This document shows positions 257 through 20,636 of a DNA stretch of 64,000 nucleotides, in pieces. The stretch covers positions 3,782,001 through 3,846,000 of the forward strand of contig NC_070566.1 in NCBI RefSeq assembly GCF_026914185.1, in the 5' to 3' direction. The stretch's first letter is position 1; every line of letters starts with the position of its first letter. The notes under the pieces are model-generated. The model was not told the DNA's origin and did no database searches. It worked only from the letters and a program-made list of their open reading frames with translations. The stretch is from Puccinia triticina. Its lineage: Eukaryota > Basidiomycota > Pucciniomycetes > Pucciniales > Pucciniaceae. Made by a program: the position numbers and the translations under genes.

Positions 257-1070
257 TGTGGTGGCCAAAATGGTAGTCGGCTTCAGTTTCAATCTTCAAG
301 ATCAGCCCTCAAGAAAACCACCCTCAAGATCAAGATTCAAGCCTCAAGATCCTCAAGGCTCAAGATTCAAATCTCAATATCACCTTCCCAATTCCTCTCA
401 GCTTCCTTTTTTTTCCCCTCTTCCTATTTCTCACTTTCCTCTCTGTCTCCTCTTCTCTTTTTCTTGGTCCTAACACAGAACTACCTGTGGATTTATTCCT
501 AGTTGTTTGTCTTTTCTGGTTTTGTTTCTTCCTTGTCTTCCTCAGCCATGTCCATTTCCATTCTTCCTGGTTCCTTTCTCATCTTCTTAATTTGTGGTCC
601 TCATTGGTTTCATGTTTTCAGCTCTTGGTTTTATTTCTCTTCCTTTTTCTTCTTTGTGTTGTCTTTGTTCTTTTCTATCTCTCTGTTGTCTGTGGTGTGT
701 GCGCGCGCATGGCGCGCAAGGAGATGATGACATGTCTGTGACAGGCCTCCAGGAATCCAAGTTCCTGGCGAACTTGGAGGATGGGAGGCCATAGCATTCT
801 GTTCTGATCCAAGGCGGAGGCTATCAGCAATTAATTCTTTTCGATCCGATACTTCCCGATTCTGCGCACGAGCGCCCAATCCCTTTTCCCAAGACATTCC
901 AACAAAACTGCCGGCGAAGATCAACTCTCCGCCGTACCTCAAAAACCACTTCCCAGCTATCACTTTGATTCTTTTGACTCTCTTTTCCGGACCACTCGAG
1001 AGGGCAGCCTCTTAGGCATCTTTTCCCCTCCCAGCGCTGCCGCCGGCCTAGCACCGGACGGAGCTCCATA
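257..1070 (+). repeat. 5' LTR of element A
   Basis: Matches 8059-8856 almost base for base. It starts TGTGG and ends CCATA, imperfect inverted ends. Compared with the 3' copy it has an extra 16 bp in a CTCAAGATT-rich stretch near 345, which looks like a small tandem duplication. A GCGCGC-rich palindromic patch lies near 700-717. Small ORFs on both strands are open in both LTR copies, but LTR identity alone explains that, so I do not call them genes. Confidence 0.95.
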
Positions 1071-1072
1071 TT

Positions 1073-1123
1073 TGGTCCCCCGAGCCGGGATCGAACCAGC
1101 GACCTCAAGATTTACAGTCTCGC
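1073..1123 (-). other. Primer-binding site extended into an antisense tRNA-Tyr-like segment
   Basis: Directly after the 5' LTR, the plus strand reads TGGTCCCCCGAGCCGGG and continues as the complement of a tRNA through the T arm, variable loop and anticodon arm. On the minus strand the anticodon loop is CTGTAAA (anticodon GTA, tyrosine), closed by the five-pair stem CGAGA/TCTTG. The T stem GCTGG/CCGGC encloses TTCGATC, and the acceptor strand ends in CCA. A D arm is not recognisable beyond about 1123, so this is not a whole tRNA gene. Nuclear tRNA-Tyr genes usually have an intron next to the anticodon; none is present, which suggests copying from a spliced tRNA primer. Confidence 0.8.
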
Positions 1124-1271
1124 ACTGTGGTTTTGAGGCGTTTGGCGGTTATAAATTTCCTTTTTTTTTCCTTCTCCTTTTTGATTCCCATCCGTTCGAA
1201 TCACAGAATCTTAGCTGAACCAGCTTGGATTCTTTTCCAAATCACTTCTCGAGGATTCGCGACACGAGGCA

Positions 1272-1405
1272 CGGATTCCTTTGAGGCGCTGACAGTGCCT
1301 CAGAGCCATCCCATCAATCCTCAGCGAACGATCTCGACCAATCGGCCTCCCCCCTTTTTTGAGTGGATTCCTTTGAGGCGCCAACAGTGCCTCAGAGCCA
1401 TCTCT
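1272..1405 (+). repeat. Pair of direct repeats in the leader of element A
   Basis: A roughly 40-bp segment beginning GGATTCCTTTGAGGCGC and ending CAGAGCCATC occurs at about 1274-1313 and again at about 1366-1405 with few changes, 92 bp apart. It lies between the primer-binding site and gag, where packaging signals of LTR elements usually sit. No ORF explains it. Its function is unknown. Confidence 0.7.
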
Positions 1406-1545
1406 CATTCCTCGCCGCCCCACTTCGTCGCAGGAGCCGCTGTAGTCCTCGTTTTAAAGGATCAAGACGTTTCAGGCTCCCATTTCTTTATTTCTTTCTT
1501 TTTTTTTCTTTAGGTGTTCAGTCGCGGGGCACAGGAGTAGCAGAA

Positions 1546-1653
1546 GTAAGTCCCCTCTAATTAGTAGCACCTCCGAAGCACTACTTTTTTTGTCAAAGCA
1601 TTATTGCCACCGCTGTGAGCCGCCCCTCGATTTCTGCTTGTTTCTCTCATCAG
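1546..1653 (+). other. Intron-like segment 1 (gag leader), related to three others in element A
   Basis: Starts GTAAGTCCCCTC and ends in a pyrimidine tract plus CAG, 108 bp, just upstream of the gag ATG at 1667. It shares its beginning, an internal GCACCTCC and a GCCACCGCTGTGAGCC box with the segments at 4165, 4624 and 7890. Splicing would remove leader sequence only. The boundaries follow GT-AG; use is inferred. Confidence 0.65.
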
Positions 1654-1666
1654 ATTCACTCTCAAG

Positions 1667-3826
1667 ATGGACGGCGTCACTGGGAATCCTCCTCGCGTGA
1701 GGATGGTCAAAATCAAACCTCAAAACAAGGCATTGAAGTTTTCGTGTTCGGAAGTCGAGCTGTTTCTTGATGACTACGAGCTAGCTGCAGAATTGGACGG
1801 CGCGTCTGATTTCGACAAGGCTCGTCAGATCGGCTCGTTTGTTGAGGATGGGGAAACTCGGACTATCCTGGCGACGCTCGATGGCTATAAGCCGCCCGAT
1901 TGGTCGAAGCTCAAAGCCGCTATGCTGAGCTACTGGGTTGACGTCGACAAGGCTCTGTTCACCGAGAGAGACATCACCAGCCTGGTCGATACGTGGGCGA
2001 AGAAAGGAGGTGTTTCGTCGGTATCGGACTATCACTCGTTCCGCAAGGCTTGGGACCCAATTCAAGCCTACCTGGTCTCGAAGAGTCATGTCGAATCGGC
2101 CGAAGAGCTTAAGAAGCCTTTTTATCAGGCGTTTTCGGAGGGTTTCCAGGGCCGTATTCGGGATCAGCTCATAAAAGAAAATACTCTGATTGTGACACCC
2201 GATAATGGGGCTCGGTTGCCTTCTTTTAAGATTTTGCAAAGCGCTGTCGACACTGTCATGAAAGGACAGATATCTCTCACTTTCGAGGACACAAGAACGT
2301 CAGCCCCGGTGGCTTCTCCTTTCCAAGCCGCGAACGATGTGATGAAGATGGGCGAGGATCAGCGCCCGAAGACAACTGATTCCGCGCCTAAACCCGAGCC
2401 GTCTATGGAGGAACTCGCCAAGCTTTTCAAAGCCTTCGAGCAGTACATGAAAGGAGAAGGCGGCAAGGTCTCGACGTCGACGGAGCACCCACCGCTAGTG
2501 TGTTATTATTGCCATCGGGAGCGCCACGGAACGGCTCGATGCCCGGAGCTCCAAAAGGACAAGGAGGCGGGTCTCGTCGAGCAACGAGGTACAAATTTCT
2601 TCCTTCCAAATGGGGCCCTGATTCCCTTCGACCGCAGTCGCCCGATTCGGCATGTAGTCGCTTCTTATCAGCCCTCCTCCTCTTCTGGGCCACCCAGGCC
2701 ATCGACACCTACTCGCCAATCATCTGCTGCCGCTACGACCGAGTACAAGGCAAGCTGTGGGTCGTTGCAGCCGTGGTACCCCCCAGCGGTATTGTCCCAG
2801 TCATTCGCAGGGGTTTATGAGTCCGATCCGGCCGGAAGGAAGCGCCACGAGGACGCTCGACCATACAAGGCTCCTTTGGTACCAGCTAGTCAGTCGAAGC
2901 GCCCCCTTCGGAAGGTTCCGAGCGGAGTTGCCGATCCGCCGAGGGTCAAAGTAGAGGACGAACCTGAGCTGTTTGATTGCATCATGAACGATTCTAATCC
3001 CGAACCCCCTCTCCCCAAGGAGGGGCCTGCAAGACCGGTCACTCCTCCTAAGAACGCTGGCTCACAGCCTAAGGTCAGGTTTGAGCGCGACGTTAGCCGA
3101 GATCACCCAGACGCAGTGGATGGATTCATCAAGAAGATATTCGACCTGCCGGTTTCAACAAGAGTGGCCGAGATTTGTTCTATTTCGCCGGCGGTCTCTG
3201 ATGGAGTCAAGAAATGGGTTTCCCGGCGTCGCGTGGAGGTTGGCTCTGAAGATTTGAAGGTTAACTCCGGAACGCTGGCGGAAGGGATTGACCCTGAGGG
3301 CGCTTTCGATCCCAATCTCTACTCGTGTCCTCTTGGATATCTAAGCTGTAGCGTGGGCGATGGCGAAGCAATATCATCGCCCCTAGTGGACTCGGGGTCT
3401 CAACTCAATTTGATCTCCGACGCCTTAGCGGTTAAGTTGAATCTTACACCTCGGGTTAATTTCAGTTCGGCGGTCTACGGAATCAATAACCAGGCATGCG
3501 AATTGATTGGGATAGCGGAAGACGTTCCCATCCGAGTGGGACGCTCCATAGTGGGTTCCTGCCATTTTTGGATTACTCGGGCAAATGGGCCTTTCATCTT
3601 GGGCCGGCCCTTCCTGATGGATTTCAAAGCCACGCTGATGTTCTCCCCGACCGCTGGGGAGCGGATCATCCTCCCGGATTCTAGTGGACGAAACATCGAG
3701 GTAACACTCTGTCCGGTTGATAAAGGAAGGTGGGAGCGCGAGTTTCCCTCCCACGGTCGCAAAGGAGTGCTGGTCCATTGTGGCCGCCTCTGCGAGGACT
3801 CCGAGGAGGCCCCGCATTTTTTATGA
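1667..3826 (+). CDS. gag: Gag-protease polyprotein of element A
   Basis: A 719-residue ORF starting at the ATG in CTCAAGATGGAC. The N-terminal half is a capsid-like helical region. A CCHC zinc knuckle (C-x2-C-x4-H-x4-C) lies at about residues 278-291 and would bind the RNA genome. A basic and proline-rich linker follows. An aspartic protease motif, VDSGS, sits at about residue 573 with a later ILGRPFL segment typical of the second half of retropepsins. Putting the protease at the end of Gag rather than in Pol resembles several Ty3/Gypsy families. The ORF ends at TGA directly after a slippery heptamer, where ribosomes would shift to the pol frame. No internal stop or frameshift is visible. Confidence 0.92.
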   Translation: MDGVTGNPPRVRMVKIKPQNKALKFSCSEVELFLDDYELAAELDGASDFDKARQIGSFVEDGETRTILATLDGYKPPDWSKLKAAMLSYWVDVDKALFTERDITSLVDTWAKKGGVSSVSDYHSFRKAWDPIQAYLVSKSHVESAEELKKPFYQAFSEGFQGRIRDQLIKENTLIVTPDNGARLPSFKILQSAVDTVMKGQISLTFEDTRTSAPVASPFQAANDVMKMGEDQRPKTTDSAPKPEPSMEELAKLFKAFEQYMKGEGGKVSTSTEHPPLVCYYCHRERHGTARCPELQKDKEAGLVEQRGTNFFLPNGALIPFDRSRPIRHVVASYQPSSSSGPPRPSTPTRQSSAAATTEYKASCGSLQPWYPPAVLSQSFAGVYESDPAGRKRHEDARPYKAPLVPASQSKRPLRKVPSGVADPPRVKVEDEPELFDCIMNDSNPEPPLPKEGPARPVTPPKNAGSQPKVRFERDVSRDHPDAVDGFIKKIFDLPVSTRVAEICSISPAVSDGVKKWVSRRRVEVGSEDLKVNSGTLAEGIDPEGAFDPNLYSCPLGYLSCSVGDGEAISSPLVDSGSQLNLISDALAVKLNLTPRVNFSSAVYGINNQACELIGIAEDVPIRVGRSIVGSCHFWITRANGPFILGRPFLMDFKATLMFSPTAGERIILPDSSGRNIEVTLCPVDKGRWEREFPSHGRKGVLVHCGRLCEDSEEAPHFL

Positions 3827-6800
3827 GGGGCGTCGATCCACTCGCCGGCGGTCTTAATGTGGGGCCTCGACGTCCGACCGGCGGATCGACTCCTGCCCAA
3901 GAGGCCCATTCTCCTTTCTTCTATTCTGTTCCCTCTATATCTGTTTCACCTCAAGATTCAATAACGAAACACCAAATCCAAAAACATCAAGAAACTCCAG
4001 AAAACGCCAAAAATATCTTTTCAACTCGCTTCAATTCGCCATCTCCACTTCTTTTCAAACCATTTTCTCCCGATCCCTCAAAAATGACCCGGCGGCTTCG
4101 CAAGGAGGCCAGCGCGGCGGAAGGTGTACAACATGGGTGTACCGCGGGGGCACAAAGTGTGAAAGTAAGTCCCCTCCAAGTATGCACCTCCTGGGTAGAT
4201 GCTACCACGATTTCAAAGACAACACCTTGGGCCACACTCGTGAGCGATTCATCAGTTTTGTGTTCTTTTTCTTTTCCAGGTGGACCTTCATCCCACCCAA
4301 TACCCCTCGCCACCGAGGAATTTCCTCCTTCTCCAACTTCGCATCAAGTTCACGCGTCTAGGGAGCAAGACGTTTCATCTCAAGATACTGGTTTCACGCT
4401 CTGCAACGAGGATAAACTAGTTTTGTCCTTCGTGACCCTCCGCGATGAGGTTAAACTAGGCCTGTCTGCAAGGACCCTCCACAATGAGGCTAAACTTCCG
4501 AGCCTCCGCGACAAGGATAAACTAAAGACCCTCCGCAATGAGGTGAAACTATTTTCTTCAAATATGGATGTTTGGGTGGATGAGGTGGAAGAACCTGAGT
4601 TGCGGAGGGATCGGAGACTAAAAGTAAGTTCTCTCCAATTATGCACCTCCGGGCGTGATGCTCCAAACGTTGTCGAAGCTCTACCTCGCGCCACTGTCGT
4701 GAGCCGCTCCCCGCCTTCCGGATTTTCTTACGCAGATAAGGCCCCTTTCGAGGGTTTCTCGGAACTTCGGACGTGGGCGTTGCTCCAGTATGGTCTCGGC
4801 AGTCAGTCTCAAAAGGTGCTGTTGGATGCCTGGAAAGCGGGCGAGCATGTGGTCTTTGCCGCCAAGTACAAGCCAGTCTCGAGGAAGATCAAACCCGTCA
4901 ATCAGCCGATGCCACAGGGTCTAAATCCCCCCCTCCGTCGACCCCCTCTTTCCCGCGATCCTTATCGGCCCTTGCCCCGCTCTTTGGCGGGCCCATTTTG
5001 CCCCAAAGGCCTCGTCACTGAGGAACAGCTTCAGGTGGTAAATTTTGGTCCGAACGGCTGGCTTTGGCCGGACGAATTGAATCTCATCAAGAATGTGCTA
5101 GCCAAGCGTAACCAGGCCATTGCCTTTGACGAGTCTGAGCGCGGACTGCTGAAGGATTTGCATGGCCTCCCTTACATTATCCCGGTCATCGAACACGAAC
5201 CCTGGCAGAAGAAGCGTATTCCTATACCTGCCGCTAAGCTAGACAAATACACCAGGATCCTTAGAGAGCGAGTCCGCAACGGCTTGTACGAGCAATCCAC
5301 CTCGTTGTATTCAAGCCCCGTGTTCTGCGTCCTTAAGTCAAACGGGAAGCTCAGGATTGTCCACAATCTTCAACCTCTGAACAAAGTCACCGTGAAGGAC
5401 GCCGGAGTTCCTCCGGCTACCGAAGATTTTGTCAAGTCATTCTTGGGTCGCGTTTGCTATGGACTCGGAGATATCTTGGGCGGTTACGATGAACGCGCCC
5501 TTGACCCAATTTCGCGCCCCTTGACGACATTCGATACCCCTCTTGGCAGATTTCAGCTGACGCGCCTCCCGCAGGGTGCCACCAACTCTGTTGCTGTTTA
5601 CCAAGCGCAGATGATGTGGGTCCTGCAGGAAGAGATCCCAGATCACGCTGGTGTTTTCATCAATGATGGGGGCATCAAGGGCCCGGCTTCTGATTACAAT
5701 AACGAGGCGCTGTCATGGCATCCAGGAGTACGGCGTTTCGTGTGGGAATATGCGATCACGCTGGAGCGCGTTCTCTTCCGGATTGAGGAGGCCGGGCTGA
5801 CGGTGTCCGCCACAAAACTGGCAGCCTGCGCTCCCGCCCTGGAAATTGTGGGTCACGTTGTGTGCAAGGAGGGCCGGCGGATGGCTAAGAATAAGATCAA
5901 CAAAATCTTAAGTTGGCCAACACCCTCGGACGCGACTGAAGTTTGCGGATTCCTTGGGGTGGTGGTGTACGTGCGGATTTTCATTCCATCTCTTTCTCAA
6001 ATTTGTGTGCCTCTGCGTCGACTGACTCGCAAGGATGCGCAATTCGTCTGGACCGAGGATTGCGAGGTCGCGTTCCAGCAACTCAAAACACTCGTGGGAA
6101 GGGACATTGTGTTGAAGAAGGTGGCGTACGGACCCGACGCAGGAAAGCTCAAACTCGCTGTTGATTCCTGCTACCATGCTGCAGGGGCCGTTCTTACTCA
6201 ACAAGATGACAGCGGTGTCGACCGACCGGCCCTCTACAAATCTCTGCTTTTCTCTGACGTGGAATCGCGCTATTCCCAGCCTAAACTGGAGCTTTGCGGC
6301 GTCGCTTGGATTCTCAAGAAGCTGCAGATTGTTTTGTGGGGTCAGCACTTCGAGCTTCTCGTCGACGCGCAGTCCCTCGTGCAGATGATCAACACACCTA
6401 GTCTACCCAACGCCCCGATGACGCGCTGGGTGTCCTTTATTCATCTTTTCTCCTTTGACATTTCACACCGCCCGGGCAAATCTTTTACCATGCCAGACGG
6501 ACTGTCTCAAAGACCTCAAGGCGACGGTGATTCCGACCCACCTTTGTCAGAGTTCGACGAGGAGGAACCTGCCATCCGGCCTATGTCGACTTTCTCGGTT
6601 GCTGCGTTGCCGCCTTATAACAGTTTTCAAGAAGGCTTCTGGCGGCAGTTGGAAGACTATCTGAAGACGTTGGCGCGCCCCGTTGGGATGGATGCGGCGG
6701 CGTTTCAGGCGTTGAGGAGGAAAGCTTCCGATTTCTTTGTTCAGGCGGGTCGACTCATGAAGAGAGGCAGCCCGCTACCTAGGATCGTGATCACCATCCC

Positions 6801-7893
6801 GAGCATGCAGGATGATGTTCTTCAGCGTCTGCACAAAGACCTTGGCCATCGAGGTACGACTGAGACTTATCGCCGGGTCGCCAACCGCTTTTGGTGGCCG
6901 GCTTTGAAAAAGTCCGTTCATCTGTGGTGCCGCAGTTGCGAGGCCTGCCAGAAGAGAGGATTGCGGCGGCCGGTGGAAATGCGCTACCCAACTGGTGAAG
7001 ACACTATATTCGGACGAGTCTCAATGGACGTCGTACACATCAAGGCGAGCGGGGCGAAATATCTCATTGTCGCGCGTGATGATTTCTCGGGCTGGGTAGA
7101 GGCCAAATTTCTCAACAACATCACTTTGGAGGCTGTCGCCGCCTTTCTGCAGGAGCACTGGACCATGCGGTATGGACTGGCGCGTGCTTACTCGACTGAC
7201 GGCGGTTCGGAATTCGGCGGCGCCCTGGCAGAGATGCTGAGGTCTTTGCCGGGGCAACATTGGGTTTCAACTCCTTATTATCCGGAGGCTCAGGGAATGG
7301 TGGAGCGCGGGCATGCTCCTCTTAAGGCAGCTCTCGTTAAATTGGCGGGCGAGTCAGGGAAAAATTGTTGGAAATTTCTCCCGCTCGTGTTGTTTGCTGA
7401 CCGCATCTCAACCAAGCGTTCAACGGGCTATTCTCCTTATGAGTTGGTCTTCGGTCAGCGGGCAGCTCTTCCAATTGATCTGGATATCAATTCGTTCCTT
7501 GGGGTTGATTGGGAGGAGGTCCGTAGTACCTCCGACCTACTAGCGGCCCGTTCTCAACAACTGGAGCGCAGTGAGGACTCTCGGCAGCTTGCTCATCAAC
7601 GGATGATGAAATCTCGGGCGGATGCCATTTGCTACTGGCAAGAGAAGAATCCCGAACGGTTGCGCGATCCCCTCTCGCCGGGCACTTTGGTTCTGGCCTA
7701 CAATCGGTTGCTCAAGGTTCAATGGGGGCAGCTATTTGCTCACAAGTGGAACGGGCCTTACCGGATTGTCACGCAAGTCCAGGGCGGCTCATATGTCTTG
7801 GCGGAGCTTGATGAGACTGAGCTTAAGCGGCGATTCGCTGCGGATCAAGTCAAGGAGTATTTTCCTCGTGGGGGCATTGGTAACTCAAAGTAA
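3730..7893 (+). CDS. pol: Pol polyprotein of element A (RT, RNase H, integrase), RT motif altered
   Basis: Open frame of 1387 codons in -1 relative to gag; translated Pol probably begins at 3823 after frameshifting. A spacer of about 350 residues includes a tandem LRNEVKL-like repeat. RT follows, with LPQGATNS and the catalytic box at about residues 643-648 reading FINDGG, where element B has FIDDGG. The first Asp of the pair is Asn (codon AAT at 5662-5664), predicted to abolish polymerisation. RNase H starts near residue 805 (AVDSCYHAAGAVL). Integrase has an HHCC finger near 1030-1080, catalytic Asp in SMDVV, Asp in STDGGSEF and Glu in MVERGH, then a C-terminal GPYRI module. The stop overlaps the GTAAGT of intron-like segment 4. 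Otherwise intact. Confidence 0.93.
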   Translation: MGARVSLPRSQRSAGPLWPPLRGLRGGPAFFMRGVDPLAGGLNVGPRRPTGGSTPAQEAHSPFFYSVPSISVSPQDSITKHQIQKHQETPENAKNIFSTRFNSPSPLLFKPFSPDPSKMTRRLRKEASAAEGVQHGCTAGAQSVKVSPLQVCTSWVDATTISKTTPWATLVSDSSVLCSFSFPGGPSSHPIPLATEEFPPSPTSHQVHASREQDVSSQDTGFTLCNEDKLVLSFVTLRDEVKLGLSARTLHNEAKLPSLRDKDKLKTLRNEVKLFSSNMDVWVDEVEEPELRRDRRLKVSSLQLCTSGRDAPNVVEALPRATVVSRSPPSGFSYADKAPFEGFSELRTWALLQYGLGSQSQKVLLDAWKAGEHVVFAAKYKPVSRKIKPVNQPMPQGLNPPLRRPPLSRDPYRPLPRSLAGPFCPKGLVTEEQLQVVNFGPNGWLWPDELNLIKNVLAKRNQAIAFDESERGLLKDLHGLPYIIPVIEHEPWQKKRIPIPAAKLDKYTRILRERVRNGLYEQSTSLYSSPVFCVLKSNGKLRIVHNLQPLNKVTVKDAGVPPATEDFVKSFLGRVCYGLGDILGGYDERALDPISRPLTTFDTPLGRFQLTRLPQGATNSVAVYQAQMMWVLQEEIPDHAGVFINDGGIKGPASDYNNEALSWHPGVRRFVWEYAITLERVLFRIEEAGLTVSATKLAACAPALEIVGHVVCKEGRRMAKNKINKILSWPTPSDATEVCGFLGVVVYVRIFIPSLSQICVPLRRLTRKDAQFVWTEDCEVAFQQLKTLVGRDIVLKKVAYGPDAGKLKLAVDSCYHAAGAVLTQQDDSGVDRPALYKSLLFSDVESRYSQPKLELCGVAWILKKLQIVLWGQHFELLVDAQSLVQMINTPSLPNAPMTRWVSFIHLFSFDISHRPGKSFTMPDGLSQRPQGDGDSDPPLSEFDEEEPAIRPMSTFSVAALPPYNSFQEGFWRQLEDYLKTLARPVGMDAAAFQALRRKASDFFVQAGRLMKRGSPLPRIVITIPSMQDDVLQRLHKDLGHRGTTETYRRVANRFWWPALKKSVHLWCRSCEACQKRGLRRPVEMRYPTGEDTIFGRVSMDVVHIKASGAKYLIVARDDFSGWVEAKFLNNITLEAVAAFLQEHWTMRYGLARAYSTDGGSEFGGALAEMLRSLPGQHWVSTPYYPEAQGMVERGHAPLKAALVKLAGESGKNCWKFLPLVLFADRISTKRSTGYSPYELVFGQRAALPIDLDINSFLGVDWEEVRSTSDLLAARSQQLERSEDSRQLAHQRMMKSRADAICYWQEKNPERLRDPLSPGTLVLAYNRLLKVQWGQLFAHKWNGPYRIVTQVQGGSYVLAELDETELKRRFAADQVKEYFPRGGIGNSK
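3817..3883 (+). promoter_or_regulatory. Probable -1 ribosomal frameshift site of element A
   Basis: The heptamer TTTTTTA (3817-3823) is in the correct phase in gag (cat-ttt-tta) and sits just before the gag stop TGA. After a -1 shift, reading continues as ATG AGG in the open pol frame. A stem can form between 3828-3836 and 3867-3875 (nine pairs, one G-U), starting four bases after the heptamer. CGCCGG in its loop (3843-3848) is exactly complementary to CCGGCG at 3878-3883, so a pseudoknot is possible, though the loop sizes are unusual. Element B has the same heptamer in the same codons. Confidence 0.8.
4165..4279 (+). other. Intron-like segment 2 in the gag-pol spacer of element A
   Basis: Runs from GTAAGTCCCCTCCAAG to CTTTTCCAG, 115 bp, with TATGCACCTCC and a CACTCGTGAGC box shared with the other three segments. 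It lies inside the long pol frame, which is open across it. Its length is not a multiple of three, so removing it alone would change the frame. It could be an alternatively used intron, or a repeated module unrelated to splicing. Confidence 0.6.
4393..4552 (+). repeat. Coding tandem repeat in the Pol spacer of element A
   Basis: About five imperfect copies of a 24-33 bp unit (type ACCCTCCGCGATGAGGTTAA) encode (T/S)LRNEVKL-like peptides with alternating charge. The unit lies between intron-like segments 2 and 3 and before the RT domain. Element B lacks this spacer altogether, so it is an addition in element A or a loss in B. Confidence 0.75.
4624..4735 (+). other. Intron-like segment 3 in the gag-pol spacer of element A
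   Basis: GTAAGTTCTCTCC at the start, TATGCACCTCCGGG, then GCCACTGTCGTGAGCC (identical over 16 bp to segment 4), ending TTTCTTACGCAG; 112 bp. Its acceptor lies just upstream of the conserved start of the RT region. A splice from the donor at 1546 to this acceptor would give a gag-less RNA for Pol. That is inference only. Confidence 0.6.
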
Positions 7894-8006
7894 GTTCCCC
7901 CTCCTCAGTATGCACCTTGGGTACCTACTACCGCATTTGTTGTAAGCCCTACTTTAGCCACTGTCGTGAGCCATGCGTGGGACCCTTTTGCTTTTTTTTC
8001 TTTTAG
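7890..8006 (+). other. Intron-like segment 4, overlapping the pol stop of element A
   Basis: GTAAGTTCCCCC begins inside the last codons of pol, so the pol stop TAA is part of the donor. The segment contains TATGCACC and GCCACTGTCGTGAGCC and ends CTTTTTTTTCTTTTAG; 117 bp. Splicing would bring another stop in after a few bases and hardly change Pol. It sits just before the polypurine tract. Confidence 0.6.
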
Positions 8007-8044
8007 TTGACGGCGAGGAACGGGGCAGTCTAGGGACAGACTGT

Positions 8045-8856
8045 AAATGGTGGGGTGATGTGGTGGCCAAAATGGTAGTCGGCTTCAGTTTCAATCTTCA
8101 AGATCAGCCCTCAAGAAAACCACCCTCAAGATCAAGATTCAAGCCTCAAGATTCAAATCTCAATATCACCTTCCCAAGTCCTCTCAGCTTCCTTTTTTTT
8201 CCCCTCTTCCTATTTCTCACTTTCCTCTCTGTCTCCTCTTCTCTTTTTCTTGGTCCTAACACAGAACTACCTGTGGATTTATTCCTAGTTGTCTGTCTTT
8301 TCTGGTTTTGTTTCTTCCTTGTCTTCCTCAGCCATGTCCATTTCCATTCTTCCTGGTTCCTTTCTCATCTTCTTAATTTGTGGTCCTCATTGGTTTCATG
8401 TTTTCAGCTCTTGGTTTTATTTCTCTTCCTTTTTCTTCTTTGTGTTGTCTTTGTTCTTTTCTATCTCTCTGTTGTCTGTGGTGTGTGCGCGCGCATGGCG
8501 CGCAAGGAGATGATGACATGTCTGTGACAGGCCTCCAGGAATCCAAGTTCCTGGCGAACTTGGAGGATGGGAGGCCATAGCATTCTGTTCTGATCCAAGG
8601 CGGAGGCTATCAGCAATTGATTCTTTTCGATCCGATACTTCCCGATTCTGCGCACGAGCGCCCGATCCCTTTTCCCAAGACATTCCAACAAAACCGCCGG
8701 CGAAGATCAACTCTCCGCCGTACCTCAAAAACCACTTCCCAGCTATCACTTCGATTCTTTTGACTCTCTTTTCCGGACCACTCGAGAGGGCAGCCTCTTA
8801 GGCATCTTTTCCCCTCCCAGCACTGCCGCCGGCCTAGCACCGGACGGAGCTCCATA
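8045..8856 (+). repeat. Polypurine tract and 3' LTR of element A
   Basis: A purine-rich AAATGGTGGGGTGA ends at 8058 directly before the LTR (8059-8856). It resembles the tract of element B (AATTTGGGGGTGGA on its strand), supporting kinship. The LTR is about 99% identical to the 5' copy apart from the 16-bp indel. The ACGT duplication follows at 8857-8860. Confidence 0.9.
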
Positions 8857-8860
8857 ACGT

Positions 8861-10242
8861 TCGCACAATACACGACTTGCGCCCGAACCCTGCAGAGGAT
8901 GGTCAATTTCGACGGTGAATCGTTGACTGACTACAAACTTGCAGAGGGGATGACTTTTGGTCTTCCCCCAGAACTGGAGCACGAAGTCAATAAACTCGAC
9001 CTTCTGAAGCGGTCAGAATTCCAGTTCAAGGAATTTGTCCGAAGGACCGGGAACTGCTACAACGCTCTGCCTAAGAAAACGACCCGACCTCGGGTAGGTG
9101 CACCTGCCGCAACACCCCAACACTCCTCGAACACCAACAACGTCCCGCGCAAGGAATACATCTGGCGTATCCACTCGTATCTGGACTCCATCGGCAAGTG
9201 TCACCACTGCAAGCAGTACTGTGGGTATGCCGCAGGTACGTGCCCAGGACCAGTCTACTGCGGCCCTGTGGAAATTCCCCCAAACTTCATCGTCCCCCCC
9301 AAGCCGGTGGACTACGTAGCACCCAGGGCTTGGACCAAAGCCCAAGCCGCCGGATCAAAACCTGGAGCACTGCAACCAGGCAGACCAACAGGCCGACCGG
9401 CTGGAGTGGCCGGCGTCGCCGAGGACGCGAACACCCCGGTCGAGACACCTGCCATACTTGACAAAGAGTTCGACTTTGACGAATATCATGCGGCAGCCGT
9501 CTCAACACTGACCGACATTGAAGCCTCCCTGGCCGATGAGACAGACGCCAGAGCTTCGACCGCGGCAGCGACAGCCCAGACCCCGGGATCGGTGGCCAAA
9601 GTCCTGGCAATGGAGCGCCTGATCTTCGAGAATGGGGAAGATCTAGTGGACTCTTTCCCAAACTTCAGGGCGACAATTCTTGATGGGGTGGAGGGCAAGT
9701 TCCCCTCGGACAATTCGGACACTGAGGGGTACGTGCTCCCTCACTCCCACTGCCAGAGGACCTTACATCAGTTCCATGCTGGTAGATGCTTACGGGGTCC
9801 GGTTTGCACAGCTCGGAGGATCAAGCTTAACACCACAAAAAGCTTTGCCCCCAGGATCCCGACTCCCCTGGTCAAGACGCCACACACGTTACACATTCAG
9901 CTCCACACCACAACCCCAATTTTTTTCGCCTGCGCTGTTCCGTGCCCTCCCGCGGAACAGACAACCCCGTCGACTCTAATCTCCGCAAATCAACCACAGG
10001 CCGCCGGCACTGACACCAAGACACAACCTTTCATTGAGCTTCCCGCCCCCCCCCCCCATTTTTGCACAGCGACTTCCTGCACTCTGACCCATGCCTTCAC
10101 TCCGCCCCGCCTACCCAGCCTATTCTCTCAATTTTCCCCCTTCTTCCTTCTCATTATAGAGGGGGAGACTGTAAATCCCCCGCGCCGCGGGCGCCGTGGA
10201 TTTCACAAACCATTCACAAGGACCCAAGCCAACCACATATAG
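8861..10242 (+). pseudogene. Retroelement gag-like ORF, downstream part
   Basis: Continues the frame of bases 1-256 after element A; together about 545 codons. A Cys-rich motif (C-x2-C-x3-C-x6-C, in KCHHCKQYCGYAAGTC) near 9200-9242 resembles a variant zinc knuckle, followed by proline- and alanine-rich sequence. The C-terminal part runs straight through the polypurine tract and into the LTR-like block at 10170, and no RT or integrase follows in frame. The host element therefore looks like a gag-only (TR-GAG-like) or pol-deleted derivative. No stop or shift is seen besides the insertion. Confidence 0.65.
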
Positions 10243-13955: not shown

Positions 13956-16900
13956 TCAGAGTTTTCTTGAATGGAACAGCTTCACATGAGGCGCCGCATA
14001 CCTGCGCTTGAGTTCTTGACCTTCAAGTTCTTCTAAAGTATATGAGCCACTTTTTTCTTGTGATTTTATGTGGTACGGCCCATTCCAGCGGTTTTCAAAG
14101 AGCTTTCCCCACTGACTTTCTAGAGATTTATTGTACACAAGAACTAGGGATCCCGGCGCAAGCGGTCCTCTGTCTGGTTTCTTCTGATTCCAATATTCGG
14201 CAGAATTTTCCCTGGAGTCCTTCATGTTCTTGTAAGCCTCTTGCAAAATTGATTCTCTCCTCTCCAGTTGGCGAACTCTGGCAAATAGGAGGTCTGCGGT
14301 TGATTTTACTGACTCCCAATCAGTCCCTAAGAAAGTTTCCAGTTCGAGGTCAATTGGTAAAACCGCCGGTTGGCCAAACATGAGTTCATAAGGCGTATAA
14401 CCAGTGGTTCTCTTCGTAGAAACTCTATCCGCAAAAAGGACAAGAGGTAAGTAGCTGCGCCATTTCTTTCCGTCCGTCCCAGCCAGTTTAACCAAGGTAT
14501 CTTTAATGGGCTGATGACCTCTTTCTACCATCCCGTTTGCTTCCGGATAATATGGCGTAGTGACTTTTACAATGGATCCTTTCTGCTTTAAGCAATCCTG
14601 AAGTTCCTTCCCAAATTCCGCCCCGCCGTCGACTACAACTGTGTGAGGTGCGCCATATCTGAAAATCCATTCGTCCGTAAACCACTGCGCAATCTTCTTA
14701 GCTTTAAGAGTTTCCAATCCCACAGCTCCGACCCATCCAGAGAGATCATCTCTTGCAATCACTAGGTATTTCCACTTTCCCGCTTTAATATGTACTGTAT
14801 CCATACTGACGCGCCCAAAAATGGTAGATTTCCCTGTTGCGTGCTTATGTTCCAAAGGTTTCAAGGGGCTTCTCTTCTGACAGGCGTCGCAGGACTGGAC
14901 CCAACTCTTGACTTTTCTTTTCATGTGCGGCCACCAAAACCTAAGCTTAGTCCGTTTGTAAGTTTCTTCCACTCCTCTATGGCCAAGTTGTTCGTGAAGC
15001 GCCTCCAGAATGTGTTCCTGGTATTTTGGATTGCTGATAACTAGTTGCGGGAAAGGTTTATTTCTCTTTTTAAGTTTGCCGTCAGAGACCATGAAGCCGG
15101 CAGATTTATGCTTTATTACTTTCCAATCCGCGTCAGAGGTATCTGTTGGCCTATTTAGAGTGAGCAAATATTCTTGAAGCTTGCCCCAAATTCCTTCTTG
15201 CTGAAATTGACCGCGCTCCACCCCCAAATTTAAAGTGTTAACTTCTTTGACGCCAAAACCGGGATGAGGCTTAATCCATTTCTCATCTTCGTCAAAACTG
15301 GGCTGCTCTCCTTCATCATCGTCTGGCGGTCTTCTAGATAATCCGTCGGGCATAGTGAAAGTTTTCCCAGGGACGTGAACCAAATTATAAGAGAATAATT
15401 GAATAAAAGCCACCCAACGAGTCATGGGAGCATTTGGAAGATCAGGTGAGTTAATCATTTCTATAAGGCTTTTAGCGTCCACTAAGAGGTCGAATTGCTG
15501 GCCCCAAAGCTGAGTTTGTAATTTTTTTAGGATTTTTGCGACGCCACAGAGCTCCAGTTTTGATTGAGAATATCTGGATTCCACCGGCGAAAAAACCACG
15601 GATTCGTATAAGACTGGCCTGTCTTTCTGGTTATCTTCTTGAGTGAGTACTGCTCCTGCCGCAATGTAGCTAGAATCCACCGCTAATTTTATTTTTCCTG
15701 CTCCTTCAGAGTAGTCCAATTTTTTTAGAGTTATATCATAACCTACTATCCGTTTCAAAAGATCAAACGCATCCTGGCACTCCTTTTTCCAGTTCCATTC
15801 CGCGTCTTTTCTGGTCAATTTTCTAAGCGGTGCGGCAAGCTCTGAAAGTCCTTTAATAAACATCCTGACATAGACGCAGACTCCTAGAAAACCTCGAACT
15901 TCCGTTGCATTTTTTGGTACCGGCCATGTTTCAATTTTATTTAGCTGTTTTTTCGAAATTTTTCTGCCCTCCCTGCACACAACGTGACCCACAAGATCCA
16001 ACGCGGGGACGCAGCAGGCAAATTTCTTTCCGGAAATTGTGAGTCCAGCTTCTTCTATTCTAAATAAGATCCGCTCCAGAGTGACGGCGTACTCCCAGAT
16101 AAATTTCCTGATGCCAGGGTTTTCTGCCAAAGTTTCTTGATTGTAATCTGAAACAGGACCTTTTATACCGCCATCATCAATGAATATACCGACATTTTGA
16201 GGAATTTCGTCTTGTAGAATCCACATCATTTGCGCCTGGTATACGGCGACAGAATTGGTTGCTCCTTGTGGTAATCTGGTAAGCTGAAATCGTCCCAGAG
16301 GAGTTTCAAAGGTGGTTAATGGCCTAGATTCTAATGATAACTCTCTTTCATCGTAGCCTCCCATTATATCTCCCAGACCGTAGCAAGCTCTCCCGGTAAA
16401 AGATTCAATTAATTCTTCCGGTGAAGGCGGTATTCCAGAGTCCTTAATTGTTACTTTATTGAGTTTTTGTAAGTCGTGGACAATCCTGAGCCTTCCATCT
16501 TGTTTTTTGACGCAAAAGACCGGGCTAGAGTAAGAGGAATAAGACTGCTCATAAAGACCTGTTCGGATGCGCTCCCGTACTAACTCTATGAATTGATCTT
16601 TAATTGCGGCAGGAATTGGAATAGGTCGCTGCTGCCAAGGTTCGTGGGCGATGACGGGAATGATGTAAGGTTTCCCGTAAGTGTGTTTGAGAAGTCCTCT
16701 CTCTTCCTCCCGAAAAGCAAGTCCTCCCTGCCGCATTACGATGATATGTTTGAATAATTTAAGTTCTTCAGGTTTGAGCCACCCGGGTGGACCGAAATTA
16801 ATGACTTTAAGGCGGTCTTCTGTGATTTTCCAAGTAGGGGTAAAATTAGGCGGGTGAGGAGTTAAAGGTGTTACATAAGGATCTCTAGATAAAGGAGGAC

Positions 16901-17054
16901 TACATAAGGGTGAGTTTATGTTCTGCGGCATGAACTGATTTACTGGCTTGATTTTTTTTGACGTTGATTTATATTTTGCCGCAAACACTAACTTTTCTTC
17001 TACACTATATTTGGGCACCTTCCAATCACCTACTTCTGGAAGGTGCCAGAAGCT
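13956..17054 (-). CDS. pol: Pol polyprotein of element B (RT, RNase H, integrase), intact
   Basis: About 1030 codons, open from the slippery site at the end of gag; no ATG is needed because the frame continues from gag by a -1 shift. RT has PPSPEEL, LPQGATNS and the catalytic FIDDGG near 16190. RNase H has AVDSSYIAAGAVL. Integrase has an HHCC finger (HEQLGHRG to CDACQKR), catalytic SMDTVH, VVDGGAEFG and MVERGH, and a C-terminal GPYHI module. It can be aligned with element A Pol along nearly its whole length from VFAAKYK onward, but A has a spacer of about 350 residues ahead of this point. All catalytic residues I checked are present. Confidence 0.94.
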   Translation of the reverse strand, partial: SFWHLPEVGDWKVPKYSVEEKLVFAAKYKSTSKKIKPVNQFMPQNINSPLCSPPLSRDPYVTPLTPHPPNFTPTWKITEDRLKVINFGPPGWLKPEELKLFKHIIVMRQGGLAFREEERGLLKHTYGKPYIIPVIAHEPWQQRPIPIPAAIKDQFIELVRERIRTGLYEQSYSSYSSPVFCVKKQDGRLRIVHDLQKLNKVTIKDSGIPPSPEELIESFTGRACYGLGDIMGGYDERELSLESRPLTTFETPLGRFQLTRLPQGATNSVAVYQAQMMWILQDEIPQNVGIFIDDGGIKGPVSDYNQETLAENPGIRKFIWEYAVTLERILFRIEEAGLTISGKKFACCVPALDLVGHVVCREGRKISKKQLNKIETWPVPKNATEVRGFLGVCVYVRMFIKGLSELAAPLRKLTRKDAEWNWKKECQDAFDLLKRIVGYDITLKKLDYSEGAGKIKLAVDSSYIAAGAVLTQEDNQKDRPVLYESVVFSPVESRYSQSKLELCGVAKILKKLQTQLWGQQFDLLVDAKSLIEMINSPDLPNAPMTRWVAFIQLFSYNLVHVPGKTFTMPDGLSRRPPDDDEGEQPSFDEDEKWIKPHPGFGVKEVNTLNLGVERGQFQQEGIWGKLQEYLLTLNRPTDTSDADWKVIKHKSAGFMVSDGKLKKRNKPFPQLVISNPKYQEHILEALHEQLGHRGVEETYKRTKLRFWWPHMKRKVKSWVQSCDACQKRSPLKPLEHKHATGKSTIFGRVSMDTVHIKAGKWKYLVIARDDLSGWVGAVGLETLKAKKIAQWFTDEWIFRYGAPHTVVVDGGAEFGKELQDCLKQKGSIVKVTTPYYPEANGMVERGHQPIKDTLVKLAGTDGKKWRSYLPLVLFADRVSTKRTTGYTPYELMFGQPAVLPIDLELETFLGTDWESVKSTADLLFARVRQLERRESILQEAYKNMKDSRENSAEYWNQKKPDRGPLAPGSLVLVYNKSLESQWGKLFENRWNGPYHIKSQEKSGSYTLEELEGQELKRRYAAPHVKLFHSRKL

Positions 17055-17060
17055 AAAAAA
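17014..17060 (-). promoter_or_regulatory. -1 ribosomal frameshift site of element B with a strong stem-loop
   Basis: On the minus strand the gag codons CAT TTT TTA give the slippery heptamer TTTTTTA (17060-17054). Six bases later, GGCACCTTCCA (17047-17037) pairs perfectly with TGGAAGGTGCC (17024-17014) around a 12-base loop. A competing seven-pair stem CTTCTGG/CCAGAAG overlaps it. Shifting back one base enters the pol frame, which is open at once. Heptamer, spacer and stem match textbook -1 signals, and element A has the same heptamer in the same codons. Confidence 0.88.
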
Positions 17061-19576
17061 TGACTCGAAGTTGTGGCGGAATTGACAGGAAAAGTGGTCT
17101 CGTATTTTTGGTTTGATGGGTTTAAAATTGGAACCAGGTAAGTCTGACCATTTTTATTTATTGAGAGGGATTCCACACCGCTGTCCTTGAATTGAATAGT
17201 AGCTGAGACGTCTATCAACCATGGTTTTCCTAGTATAGGCTGTACCGCCGCAGAAGAGACCCAGAAATGCACTTCTTTCGTAATATTTCCTACTTTAACC
17301 GGTACATTTTCCGCAATTCCCAGAATGTCACTCTTGTGTCCGCCAATACCGCGCAGTTTCATAGGTTTTTGAGTAATTATAAGCCCCATTTTCCCCGCTA
17401 GATCCCTAGGTAAAAGATTAACTTGAGAACCGTTGTCTAAGAGCGCCTGAATTTGCTTCCCATTAATGGTGACAGCAACACATCCTAAGGGGCAAGCGTA
17501 ATGCGCTGGACCGCTATCTTGCGCTTCCTCCTCTTCGTCTTCAGAGTTGACGTCGACAGCGTTGGTTGTCTTAGGTTGATCTATAGGAACTCTTTTAGGA
17601 CTAATCTTCTTTTTGAATGCATCCACGGCGCCGTTAGATATGGCGAAAACTTCTCCAATGGTGAGTTGAATTTTCTCATTTAACATTTGTGAGACCAACT
17701 TCTCTTCTGTGTCGGGGAACTGCGTAGCTAATGGTCTTTCCACATAGGTTTTGCGGGCAGGTTTCTCCTTTGTTGGCGCGCTGGTAGAGTCCTGAGGCGT
17801 GAGGATTTTAACCTTCTTTGGTGCGGGGTTTTCTTTTCTTGAAGATGCAGGAAGAGGAACTGGGTCATAATCATCCTGTCGAGCAATCTCTAAGATCCTC
17901 TCGTCGTCGACGTCCATGAGCTCTTCCTTTGTGTTTCTGACTTTTTTTGCTTTCGAATTGTCTGACCCTTCAGGATATTCTGCACCACTTCTGGTTCTCT
18001 TTCCAATGTCGCAGTCGAAAGTGTCTTCCTCCGCATATTCAACCTCCTCAAGCTTTCCAAAAGAGGTCTGGACTTCTGGTGCGCTATCTTCCTTTTTTCC
18101 CGTATGCGTTCCTAGCGGTAGGTTGATAACTCCCGCTGTTTGTCCTCTGCTTTGGTGATAAGTGTCAACTATGGTTTTAAAAGGCCTGGTTCTATCATAA
18201 GGTATTTGAGTTCCGTCTGGTAAAATAACATTGCTTCCTTCCTTCTTTACTAATCCGTTGATTTCGTCCAAGTTAACTTGATTGCACCTGTGGATGGTAT
18301 GTCCAATCATGTGACAGTAATTACATTTATAGCTAGATGGGGACCGATCTAGTTGGGCTGGTTTATAAGGAACGTGACTTGACGACACAAATGGAGACGG
18401 CTGCTTTTGTACATTCCAGCTAGAGAGGCTTTTAGTAAGTTGATCCATAGCATTATCTTTTGGTTGAGCTTTCTGCGCCGGTGGCTGAATTGTTTGAATT
18501 TCTTTCTGAATGTTTTCGTCGTTTAAAATAGCCATAGTCCTAAGTTCTCTATTAATATAGTCCAAGATAGTGTTATACGGCGGAAGAATGTGAGATCCAT
18601 CCAAGGCCATTTCCATGTGGTTATCTCTTATGAGTTCGCGGTTTACGGCGATCCGGATAGGAAAAGATAAGCAATTTAGAACCGAGTGCCTGATTTCTTC
18701 CGCGCTAACCATGTGTCGACAGCGTACTAAGTAGGCTACTAAGTTTTCTAGCTGGATACTGAAATCCTGGAACTCCTTCTGGGTTTTGATTCCCTTCGCC
18801 ATCGTGGTTGGAATAAGTTTGTCCAAATCATTCCTTGTGTACTGCAGAAGCGGAAGCATTTTTCCCCAACGTTGAACTAATTTAAGCTTGAGTTTTTCCC
18901 AGTCGTGTCTTTCCCGCTCCGCCATTTCCTGTACTTCTTTTATTAAAGATTCCCCTTCCAAGAAGAATATAATTTGTAGAGCAATATCAGATCCTTGGGC
19001 GCCATCCAATCTAGCCGCATATTCCAGGCGCTTAATAAAATCTCCAATGTCCATGTTTGTACCATCAAAGATAAGTCCTTTGGCGCCAGCTTTGATTTTA
19101 ACTGGTTTCCTTCCAAATGGTTCTGGGTTATAGGCGGGGAGCTGAATGCTAGTTTGTAAGAAATGTGGGGTAATTTGAGCTGCTGCGCCTGATTGGCGAG
19201 TCTGGTTTACGTATTGCGGCGCAGGGCGGTATTGACTGTTTAAAAAGTTATTTCCTAGGAGTGGATCCAACGCTGCGCTTCCTGTGGTCGAAGGGCTAGT
19301 ATTTCTCATTGTTCCAGGATTAAATGGCACTGAGGGCGCTTGATTTGATGAAAATGTAAGCCCGCTATTTACTATTGGCATAGCTCCGACGTTCCTCGGC
19401 GTAACTGACGATCCAGCGTTCCCCGGCGGAACCGACAATCCAACGTCCATCGGCGCAGGCGCTAATCCAACATTTGCTTGTCTAGTATTTCCTCCAAACG
19501 GCGGAATTTCCATATTAGATAAATGGAACCTAGGGTACGGTCCGGAGAAAGAGCTTCGTCTGCCGGCGTTAGGCAT
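17030..19576 (-). CDS. gag: Gag-protease polyprotein of element B
   Basis: The frame is open from 19639, but the first ATG is at 19576, giving about 848 residues. An N-terminal Pro/Asn/Gly-rich region includes two or three short imperfect repeats (PxNVG). A capsid-like helical middle (HDWEKLKLKLVQRWGKM) follows. A CCHC knuckle CNYCHMIGHTIHRC precedes an acidic linker. The retropepsin box reads LLDNGSQVNLL, with Asn where Ser or Thr is usual, and a later PILGKPWL fits the second half of the fold. Whether DNG proteases of this family are active is unknown to me. The frame ends 24 bases after the slippery codons. Confidence 0.9.
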   Translation of the reverse strand: MPNAGRRSSFSGPYPRFHLSNMEIPPFGGNTRQANVGLAPAPMDVGLSVPPGNAGSSVTPRNVGAMPIVNSGLTFSSNQAPSVPFNPGTMRNTSPSTTGSAALDPLLGNNFLNSQYRPAPQYVNQTRQSGAAAQITPHFLQTSIQLPAYNPEPFGRKPVKIKAGAKGLIFDGTNMDIGDFIKRLEYAARLDGAQGSDIALQIIFFLEGESLIKEVQEMAERERHDWEKLKLKLVQRWGKMLPLLQYTRNDLDKLIPTTMAKGIKTQKEFQDFSIQLENLVAYLVRCRHMVSAEEIRHSVLNCLSFPIRIAVNRELIRDNHMEMALDGSHILPPYNTILDYINRELRTMAILNDENIQKEIQTIQPPAQKAQPKDNAMDQLTKSLSSWNVQKQPSPFVSSSHVPYKPAQLDRSPSSYKCNYCHMIGHTIHRCNQVNLDEINGLVKKEGSNVILPDGTQIPYDRTRPFKTIVDTYHQSRGQTAGVINLPLGTHTGKKEDSAPEVQTSFGKLEEVEYAEEDTFDCDIGKRTRSGAEYPEGSDNSKAKKVRNTKEELMDVDDERILEIARQDDYDPVPLPASSRKENPAPKKVKILTPQDSTSAPTKEKPARKTYVERPLATQFPDTEEKLVSQMLNEKIQLTIGEVFAISNGAVDAFKKKISPKRVPIDQPKTTNAVDVNSEDEEEEAQDSGPAHYACPLGCVAVTINGKQIQALLDNGSQVNLLPRDLAGKMGLIITQKPMKLRGIGGHKSDILGIAENVPVKVGNITKEVHFWVSSAAVQPILGKPWLIDVSATIQFKDSGVESLSINKNGQTYLVPILNPSNQKYETTFPVNSATTSSHFLASGTFQK

Positions 19577-20636
19577 TTCTTGCGGTATTTCTACGGTTAA
19601 GTTTCTAGAGTCTACTAAGTTGATGATATAGTTATTCAAGGTAGAAAGACTTGGGTGCGTCGAGTTTAAAGGTATTTCAGAAGAATTCTAGGTCGGAATT
19701 TTGTTTGAAAAGATTTTAAACTAAGAGTAAGAGTAATTTTTCTACTAAGATCAATAGAATTTTTAGAGTAATTTTTAACTAATGTATTTATTAAGCCTAG
19801 AAATGACGAGACTATAAATCTAAAGATCTTCAGGCCACTGTTGGGACACCACTTGTGGAACTACTCTTTGGGGGAATAGAGCTTAGAGAGGGATGAGTGC
19901 GTGAAAAGCTGCCTCTCAGGTTGGGAGAGTAATATGGGACAAGAATAAGAGTATGGACTCTTAAAGAAAAGTGTGGCTGATGAAGTATTGAGAATAGTGC
20001 TTTCTAGACGAAATCAAGGGGGAAAATATACTGTAAAATATGTGGTAAAATAGGCTATGTAATTCTTATTCTGTGACCAGGGATGCAAAGTGACAATCTG
20101 ATGGGGGACAAACAGAATGGGCCAAAAGGCTCTACATTTATAGTGAGGGGACAACAGGTGGTTCTGAGACGAAGAGAAAGATGGGAACAGGGTACAAAAA
20201 GCCTCCAACAAGGTGACAAGGCAACAAAACAACAAGGCATCTACTACATGGCTTGGGATGACATAAGAGGAAAACAATAACCATGGCGCATCAGCCGCCA
20301 TGCATCTGAGAAAGAGTTACGCCTTGCTGGAATATAGAGGAGTTAATTCTAGTGAACACTCAGGGTCCTTCCTAATAGTCTGGCTCTGTTTGATGGTGGA
20401 CTTTCTCCCACTTTGAACCTGATTTTGTACATATTTTATTACCCATTGTGGAGGGCCATCCATGAAAGTGAATACTGAGAAGTTGAGGCGCCTTGTAGAG
20501 ATGTTTCTAGGCTATTATGAAGTGTCTGTGGGCGTGGATTACATGTACCAGAGTGATTTCTAGAGGGCGTTTGGCGGTGATTCCTTCCTGGTGAGTGTCT
20601 GAGTGATGTAATAAGGTTTTGATTAGGCTCACCACA
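19577..20636 (-). repeat. 5' LTR, primer site and leader of element B
   Basis: The LTR spans 19854-20636. On the minus strand it is followed after two bases by TGGTGTCCCAACAGTGG (19851-19835), the expected place of the primer-binding site; I cannot assign the tRNA. The leader to the gag ATG is AT-rich and has no intron-like segment, unlike element A. Confidence 0.85.

Follow-up and report, generated by a model that had tools for sequence, protein, structure and literature searches.

Four related intron-like units conserved in a Ty3-type LTR retrotransposon of Puccinia triticina: candidates for weak, mostly retained introns

A 64,000-nt stretch of the Puccinia triticina contig NC_070566.1 (the window; all plain coordinates below are positions in it) carries a Ty3-type long terminal repeat (LTR) retrotransposon, spanning 257–8856, with four mutually related intron-like units, S1 to S4. 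Sequence comparison indicates that these units are a real, strongly conserved and unusual feature. As to mechanism, we infer that S1–S4 are, on balance probably, four paralogous built-in weak spliceosomal introns that are mostly retained and whose occasional splicing would give a Gag-only RNA. A retroelement is expected to lose its introns with every cycle. The lineage described here, of which one genome has well over a thousand core copies, appears to keep four related intron-like units, at coding and non-coding places, under nucleotide-level selection. If spliced, they would be a compact system for balancing Gag, Pol and genome RNA and for tuning a natural intron towards retention. The units, with the reading frames around them (RT, reverse transcriptase; PR, protease; aa, amino acids), are as follows.

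1522–1653, plus strand: unit S1, with a G-rich arm from 1522 and the intron-like part at 1546–1653; in the leader, without ATG
1606–1620, plus strand: bulged-A hairpin box of S1, GCCACNNNNGTGAGC, with the A at 1618
1667–3826, plus strand: Gag-protease (Gag-PR) frame, 719 aa, starting at the next ATG after 781
3724–7893, plus strand: pol open frame with RT, RNase H and integrase, open through S2 and S3
3817–3826, plus strand: −1 frameshift site at the stop of Gag-PR, T TTT TTA TGA, with a possible stem behind it
4141–4279, plus strand: unit S2, intron-like part 4165–4279, read in the pol frame
4231–4245, plus strand: bulged-A hairpin box of S2, with the A at 4243
4600–4735, plus strand: unit S3, intron-like part 4624–4735, read in the pol frame
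4690–4704, plus strand: bulged-A hairpin box of S3, with the A at 4702
7866–8006, plus strand: unit S4, intron-like part 7890–8006, with the pol stop inside its GTAAGT
7957–7971, plus strand: bulged-A hairpin box of S4, with the A at 7969

The first-pass annotation, made from the sequence alone, had described the four intron-like parts as similar segments with GTAAGT at the start and a pyrimidine tract plus AG at the end; both their positions and their likeness were borne out. Pairwise local scores among S1–S4 range from 25 to 39, and all six pairs score above all 500 dinucleotide shuffles, whereas in 12 comparisons of the 110-nt flanks the observed score was reached by 4 to 177 of 200 shuffles. 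A profile built from the four units matched only those four in the window, in agreement with the annotation's remark that a second retrotransposon there, Element B (13956–19687, minus strand), lacks them. Rfam gave no match within S1–S4 at E up to 5.

Conservation extends to some 20 nt before GTAAGT: the unit opens there with a G-rich run, the counterpart of a C-rich run that directly follows GTAAGT. Fifty units picked from 104 profile hits were aligned, and AAGTAAG, the GC of GCACC, GCCAC and GTGAGC are among the columns without variation; exact GCCACNNNNGTGAGC is present in 99 of the 104 hits and exact AAGTAAG in 101. The GCACC box is read in different frames across families, by way of compensating indels, so that it is the nucleotides and not a peptide that are conserved. 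The first-pass annotation had allowed that the shared boxes might lie in a larger, non-intronic repeat. The repeated unit is indeed larger than the intron, but the splice signals themselves are conserved.

In the genome (122.8 Mb, 18 contigs) the GCCACNNNNGTGAGC box occurs 1,387 times (671 + 716), compared with 14 occurrences (8 + 6) of the reversed pattern. The first 100 places, all on one chromosome (C1), were used for clustering and for a reading of 210 nt at each. They fall into 42 clusters, 20 with three to five units (67 of the 100 places), 11 with two and 11 with one. Full clusters have the order S1, ∼2.6 kb, S2, ∼0.4 kb, S3, ∼3.27 kb, S4. Four exact boxes were present in only five of the 20 larger clusters, and five boxes in one. 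For 10 of the clusters that have fewer exact boxes, 601 nt were read where S1 would be expected; five elements (L173, L174, L176, L180 and L182) have an S1 unit with AAGTAAGT there, and the fixed pattern therefore undercounts. The hairpin loop of these five units has three or five bases instead of four; the stem is kept, in one of them with a wobble G-U pair after a change of C to T.

The copy number is four or five, as some elements carry a fifth unit. In L037 and in C1:2230535–2237067 the extra unit lies between S2 and pol, and in L037 it shares an upstream coding stretch with its neighbour in the manner of a tandem duplication. Exact AAGTAAG stands upstream at 90 of the 100 C1 places and AAGTGAG at three (L076, L122 and L148); three places look like chance matches (L072, L112 and L147), and at four the donor side is damaged or replaced (L116, L140, L144 and L165). 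Intact donors among these places are GTAAG and GTGAG only. In a divergent family (L169, C1:6252600–6257400, with a related pair at C1:1116041/1116221, to 1116235) two core units stand 180 nt apart at the S2/S3 place; both are read in frame in L169, and one unit of the family has AAGTGAG. The linker between S2 and S3 (4380–4560) contains short repeats, with a peptide close to LRNEVKL, whose number varies by eye between copies.

The frames across the units were analysed in 30 loci around S3, the window copy included. The distance from S2 to S3 is a multiple of 3 in 26 of them; in 26 loci the pol frame runs open through S2, and in one an in-frame stop was seen within S3. Among spacings of the S2–S3 type on C1, 19 of 22 are divisible by 3, and the remaining three come from near-identical copies. 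S1 is without ATG in 17 of 18 copies (and, by eye, in four of the five later-found S1 units), and in the window no ATG starts in the leader between 782 and 1666, whereas ATG is present in S2 in 19 of 19 copies and in S3 in 16 of 18. The classical −1 slippery heptamer T TTT TTA, followed by TGA, stands at the Gag-PR stop in 26 of 29 loci. Open S2 and S3, a mostly ATG-free S1 and the frameshift site together point to the unspliced RNA as the coding form, and Gag and Gag-Pol would most simply be made from RNA that retains S1, S2 and S3. The annotation's argument that such introns would have to be optional agrees with these conserved unspliced frames, and no close copies lacking S1, S2, S3 or S4 were found. 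Downstream of the frameshift site (3817–3900) there are stretches that can pair and that, by eye, seem to change in concert between families.

Alongside this constraint on the unspliced frame, the units carry the marks of introns. On the 5′ side they agree with GURAGU, the 5′ splice site expected of spliceosomal introns. On the 3′ side, a YAG after at least 10 pyrimidines in 13, at a fixed window after GTGAGC, was present in 68 of 85 unique units, compared with 9.7% of 3,603 control windows drawn from the loci retrieved; the 17 units under this threshold include the four units of one divergent family. In 27 unique copies of S3, 11 of 37 third codon positions are invariant, compared with 6 of 99 in the adjoining downstream exon (Fisher p 0.0006). 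Among the invariant positions are the two wobble bases in GTA AGT and, in a codon that varies otherwise, the A of the acceptor AG. These observations indicate that the splice signals themselves are under selection. The length of S3 is 1 modulo 3 in 18 of 18 unique copies, and S2 has a length not divisible by 3 in 18 of 19. In the window copy the pol frame after the ATG at 4084 is 1,269 aa long when unspliced, and ends 73, 242 or 73 aa after this ATG when S2, S3 or both are removed. Such removal leaves Gag-PR intact and loses Pol, the kind of coding consequence seen in the plant retrotransposons BARE1 and EVD, discussed below. Pol ends at a TAA that S4 itself supplies, within its GTAAGT.

The fungal branch-point consensus is CTRAY. 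Between 12 and 60 nt before the AG, CTRAY was found in none of the 85 unique units (shuffle mean 14.1) and YTRAY in four (shuffle mean 25.6). The place of the branch site holds GCCAC-NNNN-GTGAGC, two conserved blocks that are complementary save for one bulged A. The bases that separate them differ from unit to unit, and in S1 their number differs too. RNAalifold chooses this hairpin in the joint alignment, in the class alignments of S2, S3 and S4 and, under one of two settings, in that of S1. Two random oligomers, a 5-mer and a 6-mer, pair equally well with one bulge in 0.47% of trials. From the bulged A to the AG the median distance is 35 nt (range 18–50; 77 of the 85 units, with a YAG after at least 9 pyrimidines in 13). 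A branch point would lie at about 35 nt before the AG. The hairpin may either hide the bulged A or offer it. In the tubulin genes three introns, recognised from the conserved protein, have by eye CTGAT, CTGAT and CTAAT 25–34 nt from the AG, though the filter for these introns required such a motif, so that they are no proof for host introns generally.

Other folds fared less well. For a helix of the G-rich and C-rich runs around the donor the support is mixed: none of 300 redeals reached the matched score over all 85 units, but by class 17, 28 and 117 of 300 did so in S2, S3 and S4, the near arm taken by itself gives no support in the S4 class (294 of 300), and by folding energy 26 of 500 redeals did equally well. 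A second helix, around GCACC, was convincing by eye and was dropped when 222 of 300 redeals reached its score. A stable overall fold of the unit was likewise rejected, the folding energy being unremarkable.

Probes made of the joined 60-base flanks of each unit, which reach close copies only, were used to look for intron-less copies. They gave half matches and no spanning match among the scored candidates (S1, 29 of 29; S2, 6 of 6; S3, 19 of 19; S4, 40 of 75). Within that reach, the result indicates that all four units are still present in the RNA that undergoes reverse transcription.

As weak introns, the units could work as follows. The hairpin GCCAC-NNNN-GUG(A)GC would replace the usual branch motif, with its adenosine bulged at branch-point distance, and splicing would for this reason be slow. 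A minority of transcripts would lose S2 and/or S3; since loss of either shifts the frame and cuts off the RT-integrase part, the spliced RNA would make Gag-PR only, and the retained RNA would be both genome and Gag-Pol message. This suggests that partial splicing may sort the transcripts into those that serve to make proteins and those that give rise to new copies. The most speculative step is that the internal boxes would also label unspliced RNA to be exported or packaged; the failure to find an intron-less copy would then be explained. The full form of this idea, a self-attenuating intron kept in several copies, each with its own bulged branch A and with retention as the default, whose boxes tag the unspliced RNA for packaging so that spliced RNA goes untagged and the introns survive reverse transcription, we consider distinctly doubtful.

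Several points weigh against interpreting the units as weak introns. The copies are related, and the shuffle, control and Fisher values overstate independence accordingly. The absence of intron-less copies from the set of close copies that the probes reached is equally expected if nothing is spliced. The fixed residue class of S3 may only reflect the constraint to multiples of 3 in the coding sequence; multiples of 3 also occur in 5 of 14 units labelled S4 and in 7 of 24 unlabelled ones, which makes the lengths of S2 and S3 weak evidence for frame-breaking splicing. Covariation is unable to test the hairpin because its stem hardly varies, and whole-unit single-sequence folds are no better than shuffles (z −0.34 to 1.80). 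S1 was not found in the expected 601 nt of the other 5 of the 10 elements (L175, L177, L178, L179 and L181), and some elements may truly be without S1 at that place. In the divergent family none of the four units has a clear pyrimidine tract; this family may have lost splicing, or the core of the unit may have a role apart from splicing.

It is mainly the divergent family, with its core preserved but no clear 3′ splice site, that sustains another explanation, possible though on the unlikely side: the units are not spliced but form a four-copy cis-acting RNA element, for example in Gag binding and packaging or in nuclear export, and their intron look is incidental or a by-product. Such an element would account for internal boxes conserved as well as the splice sites, for selection on the unspliced RNA as seen in the frames, for the missing canonical branch motif and for what support the donor helix has over the 85 units, weaker or absent by class. 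It would not by itself call for a tract of pyrimidines and a YAG at constant distance, far commoner than in the controls, at a place where the S2 peptide varies by eye, nor for intact donors restricted to GTAAG and GTGAG, and the unremarkable folding energy gives it no help.

A near-perfect donor without canonical branch motif could also be a spliceosome trap, in which a strong donor and a weak branch site stall the spliceosome, so that U1 blocks premature polyadenylation or host RNA interference is fed. Stalling of the spliceosome has been linked to the production of small interfering RNA in fungi (Dumesic 2013, as cited in PMC8892269). We find this improbable, as an element would not maintain a trigger of its own silencing by the host, and a role of U1 alone has no need of a conserved 3′ side.

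A spumavirus-like arrangement, in which a long-range splice from the S1 donor to the S3 acceptor makes a gag-less Pol messenger, had been put forward in the first-pass annotation. The element does have this donor and this acceptor, as well as an in-frame ATG at 4909. After splicing from 1546 to 4735, however, the first three ATGs (4790, 4826 and 4847) are out of the pol frame and precede the one at 4909, Pol lies behind the conserved −1 frameshift site at the Gag-PR stop, and the frame is conserved through S2, the linker and S3; the proposal is thus highly improbable. Spread of mobile introners through retrotransposon and host genes, also suggested there from the several related introns in one gene and in keeping with a copy number of four or five, is barely credible, because the homology begins ∼20 nt before the donor and the repeat boundary thus differs from the splice sites, the extra unit of L037 came with duplicated coding sequence, and no host-gene intron was recognised by eye in the 100 core places read on C1 (210 nt each), which, apart from the three probable chance matches, have the look of element units.

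Several known systems resemble a weak, mostly retained intron in part. For BARE1, a Ty1/copia element of barley, PMC3735527 describes a spliced, Gag-only subgenomic RNA and separate translated and packaged pools of RNA. The likeness is that a spliced LTR-retrotransposon transcript would give a Gag-only message beside the unspliced genome RNA; the difference is that here four related units of ∼110 nt stand at four positions of a Ty3-type fungal element with a frameshift-separated pol, and that splicing is predicted. In EVD, a Ty1/copia element of Arabidopsis, intron retention separates shGAG from flGAG-POL (PMC8892269), likewise a Gag messenger set apart from the full-length RNA, but there splicing is coupled to premature polyadenylation, and in that source, as far as it was available, no repeated units are described for EVD.

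Spumaviruses express Pol from a messenger in which the first start codon past the splice belongs to Pol, and Pol is not tied to Gag by a frameshift. Here Pol is linked to Gag by a frameshift site, and out-of-frame ATGs would come first after the splice. We know of no set of paralogous introns in Ogre, an LTR retrotransposon of pea. The likeness to Ogre is a partially spliced transcript, Ogre being ‘constitutively transcribed and partially spliced’ in a title cited in PMC1142308. With Cer1 of Caenorhabditis elegans and the retroviruses the likeness is an unspliced genomic RNA that has to be exported despite its splice sites, and the difference a spliced mRNA for an export protein, which is a feature of Cer1 and for which no search was made here (both from what PMC10309623 says of them). 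Introners, as portrayed in PMC9860276, share with the units the occurrence of related introns at several sites, but are spread over host genes, while the present unit reaches into the exon and was found in one element lineage only. In the literature searched, whose coverage excludes most subscription papers, no LTR element with several related introns was found described. The division of Gag messenger and genome RNA by splicing is thus a known principle; new, as far as we found, are units that are repeated, attenuated and partly coding.

The close named protein relatives of the element come from rusts and from another basidiomycete, the yeast Phenoliferia; relatives outside the P. triticina genome were compared as proteins only. 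Among the matches listed, named P. striiformis proteins belong to the same RT-RNase H-integrase family with 52–66% identity. In P. striiformis P0018 the protease is joined, by eye, to the RT without the S2-linker-S3 insert. Element B, of the same family, also has no such insert between protease and RT (by profile, and by eye in the proteins). The units therefore seem to belong to a sub-lineage of the element family. One scan each of viral-contig and genome-contig collections gave no DNA relatives elsewhere. Element B has overlapping gag-PR and pol frames; its pol frame of 1,065 aa is without stop in the matched part at 16 listed genome places, the window copy included, and for this reason it looks recently active.

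The host element itself is a Ty3-type LTR retrotransposon, with two LTRs (99.1% identical), a tRNA-complementary primer site and the order RT-RNase H-integrase. Its outer parts are as follows.

257–1070, plus strand: 5′ LTR, with 791 of 798 aligned bases the same as in 8059–8856
1074–1148, plus strand: primer-binding region, where a tRNA model on the minus strand scores 24.9 bits, below gathering
8059–8856, plus strand: 3′ LTR, matching the 5′ LTR

Among the pol domains, RT_RNaseH, RT_RNaseH_2 and Integrase_H2C2 score above curated cut-offs, and RVT_1 and rve just under. The catalytic Asp-Asp motif of the RT (5665–5685) is not intact in the window copy and is intact in relatives, for example P0001. 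The Gag-PR frame has no Pfam match; a CCHC knuckle and a protease-like motif are visible by eye.

The primer-binding region is retained in eight of eight S1 loci, the window copy included. A usual primer-binding site, of ∼18 nt, is far shorter than the region 1071–1148, which appears complementary to a long 3′ part of a mature, intron-less tRNA, through the anticodon loop (anticodon GTA; tRNA identity by eye). ARAGORN found no tRNA. Priming at the anticodon loop has been reported for Puccinia Copia elements, according to PMC10886601.

The element seems to be inserted in the coding sequence of another retroelement (flanks 1–256 and 8857–10242). By eye, the right flank has a gag frame with a zinc-knuckle-like motif, and ACGT adjoins both ends of the element.

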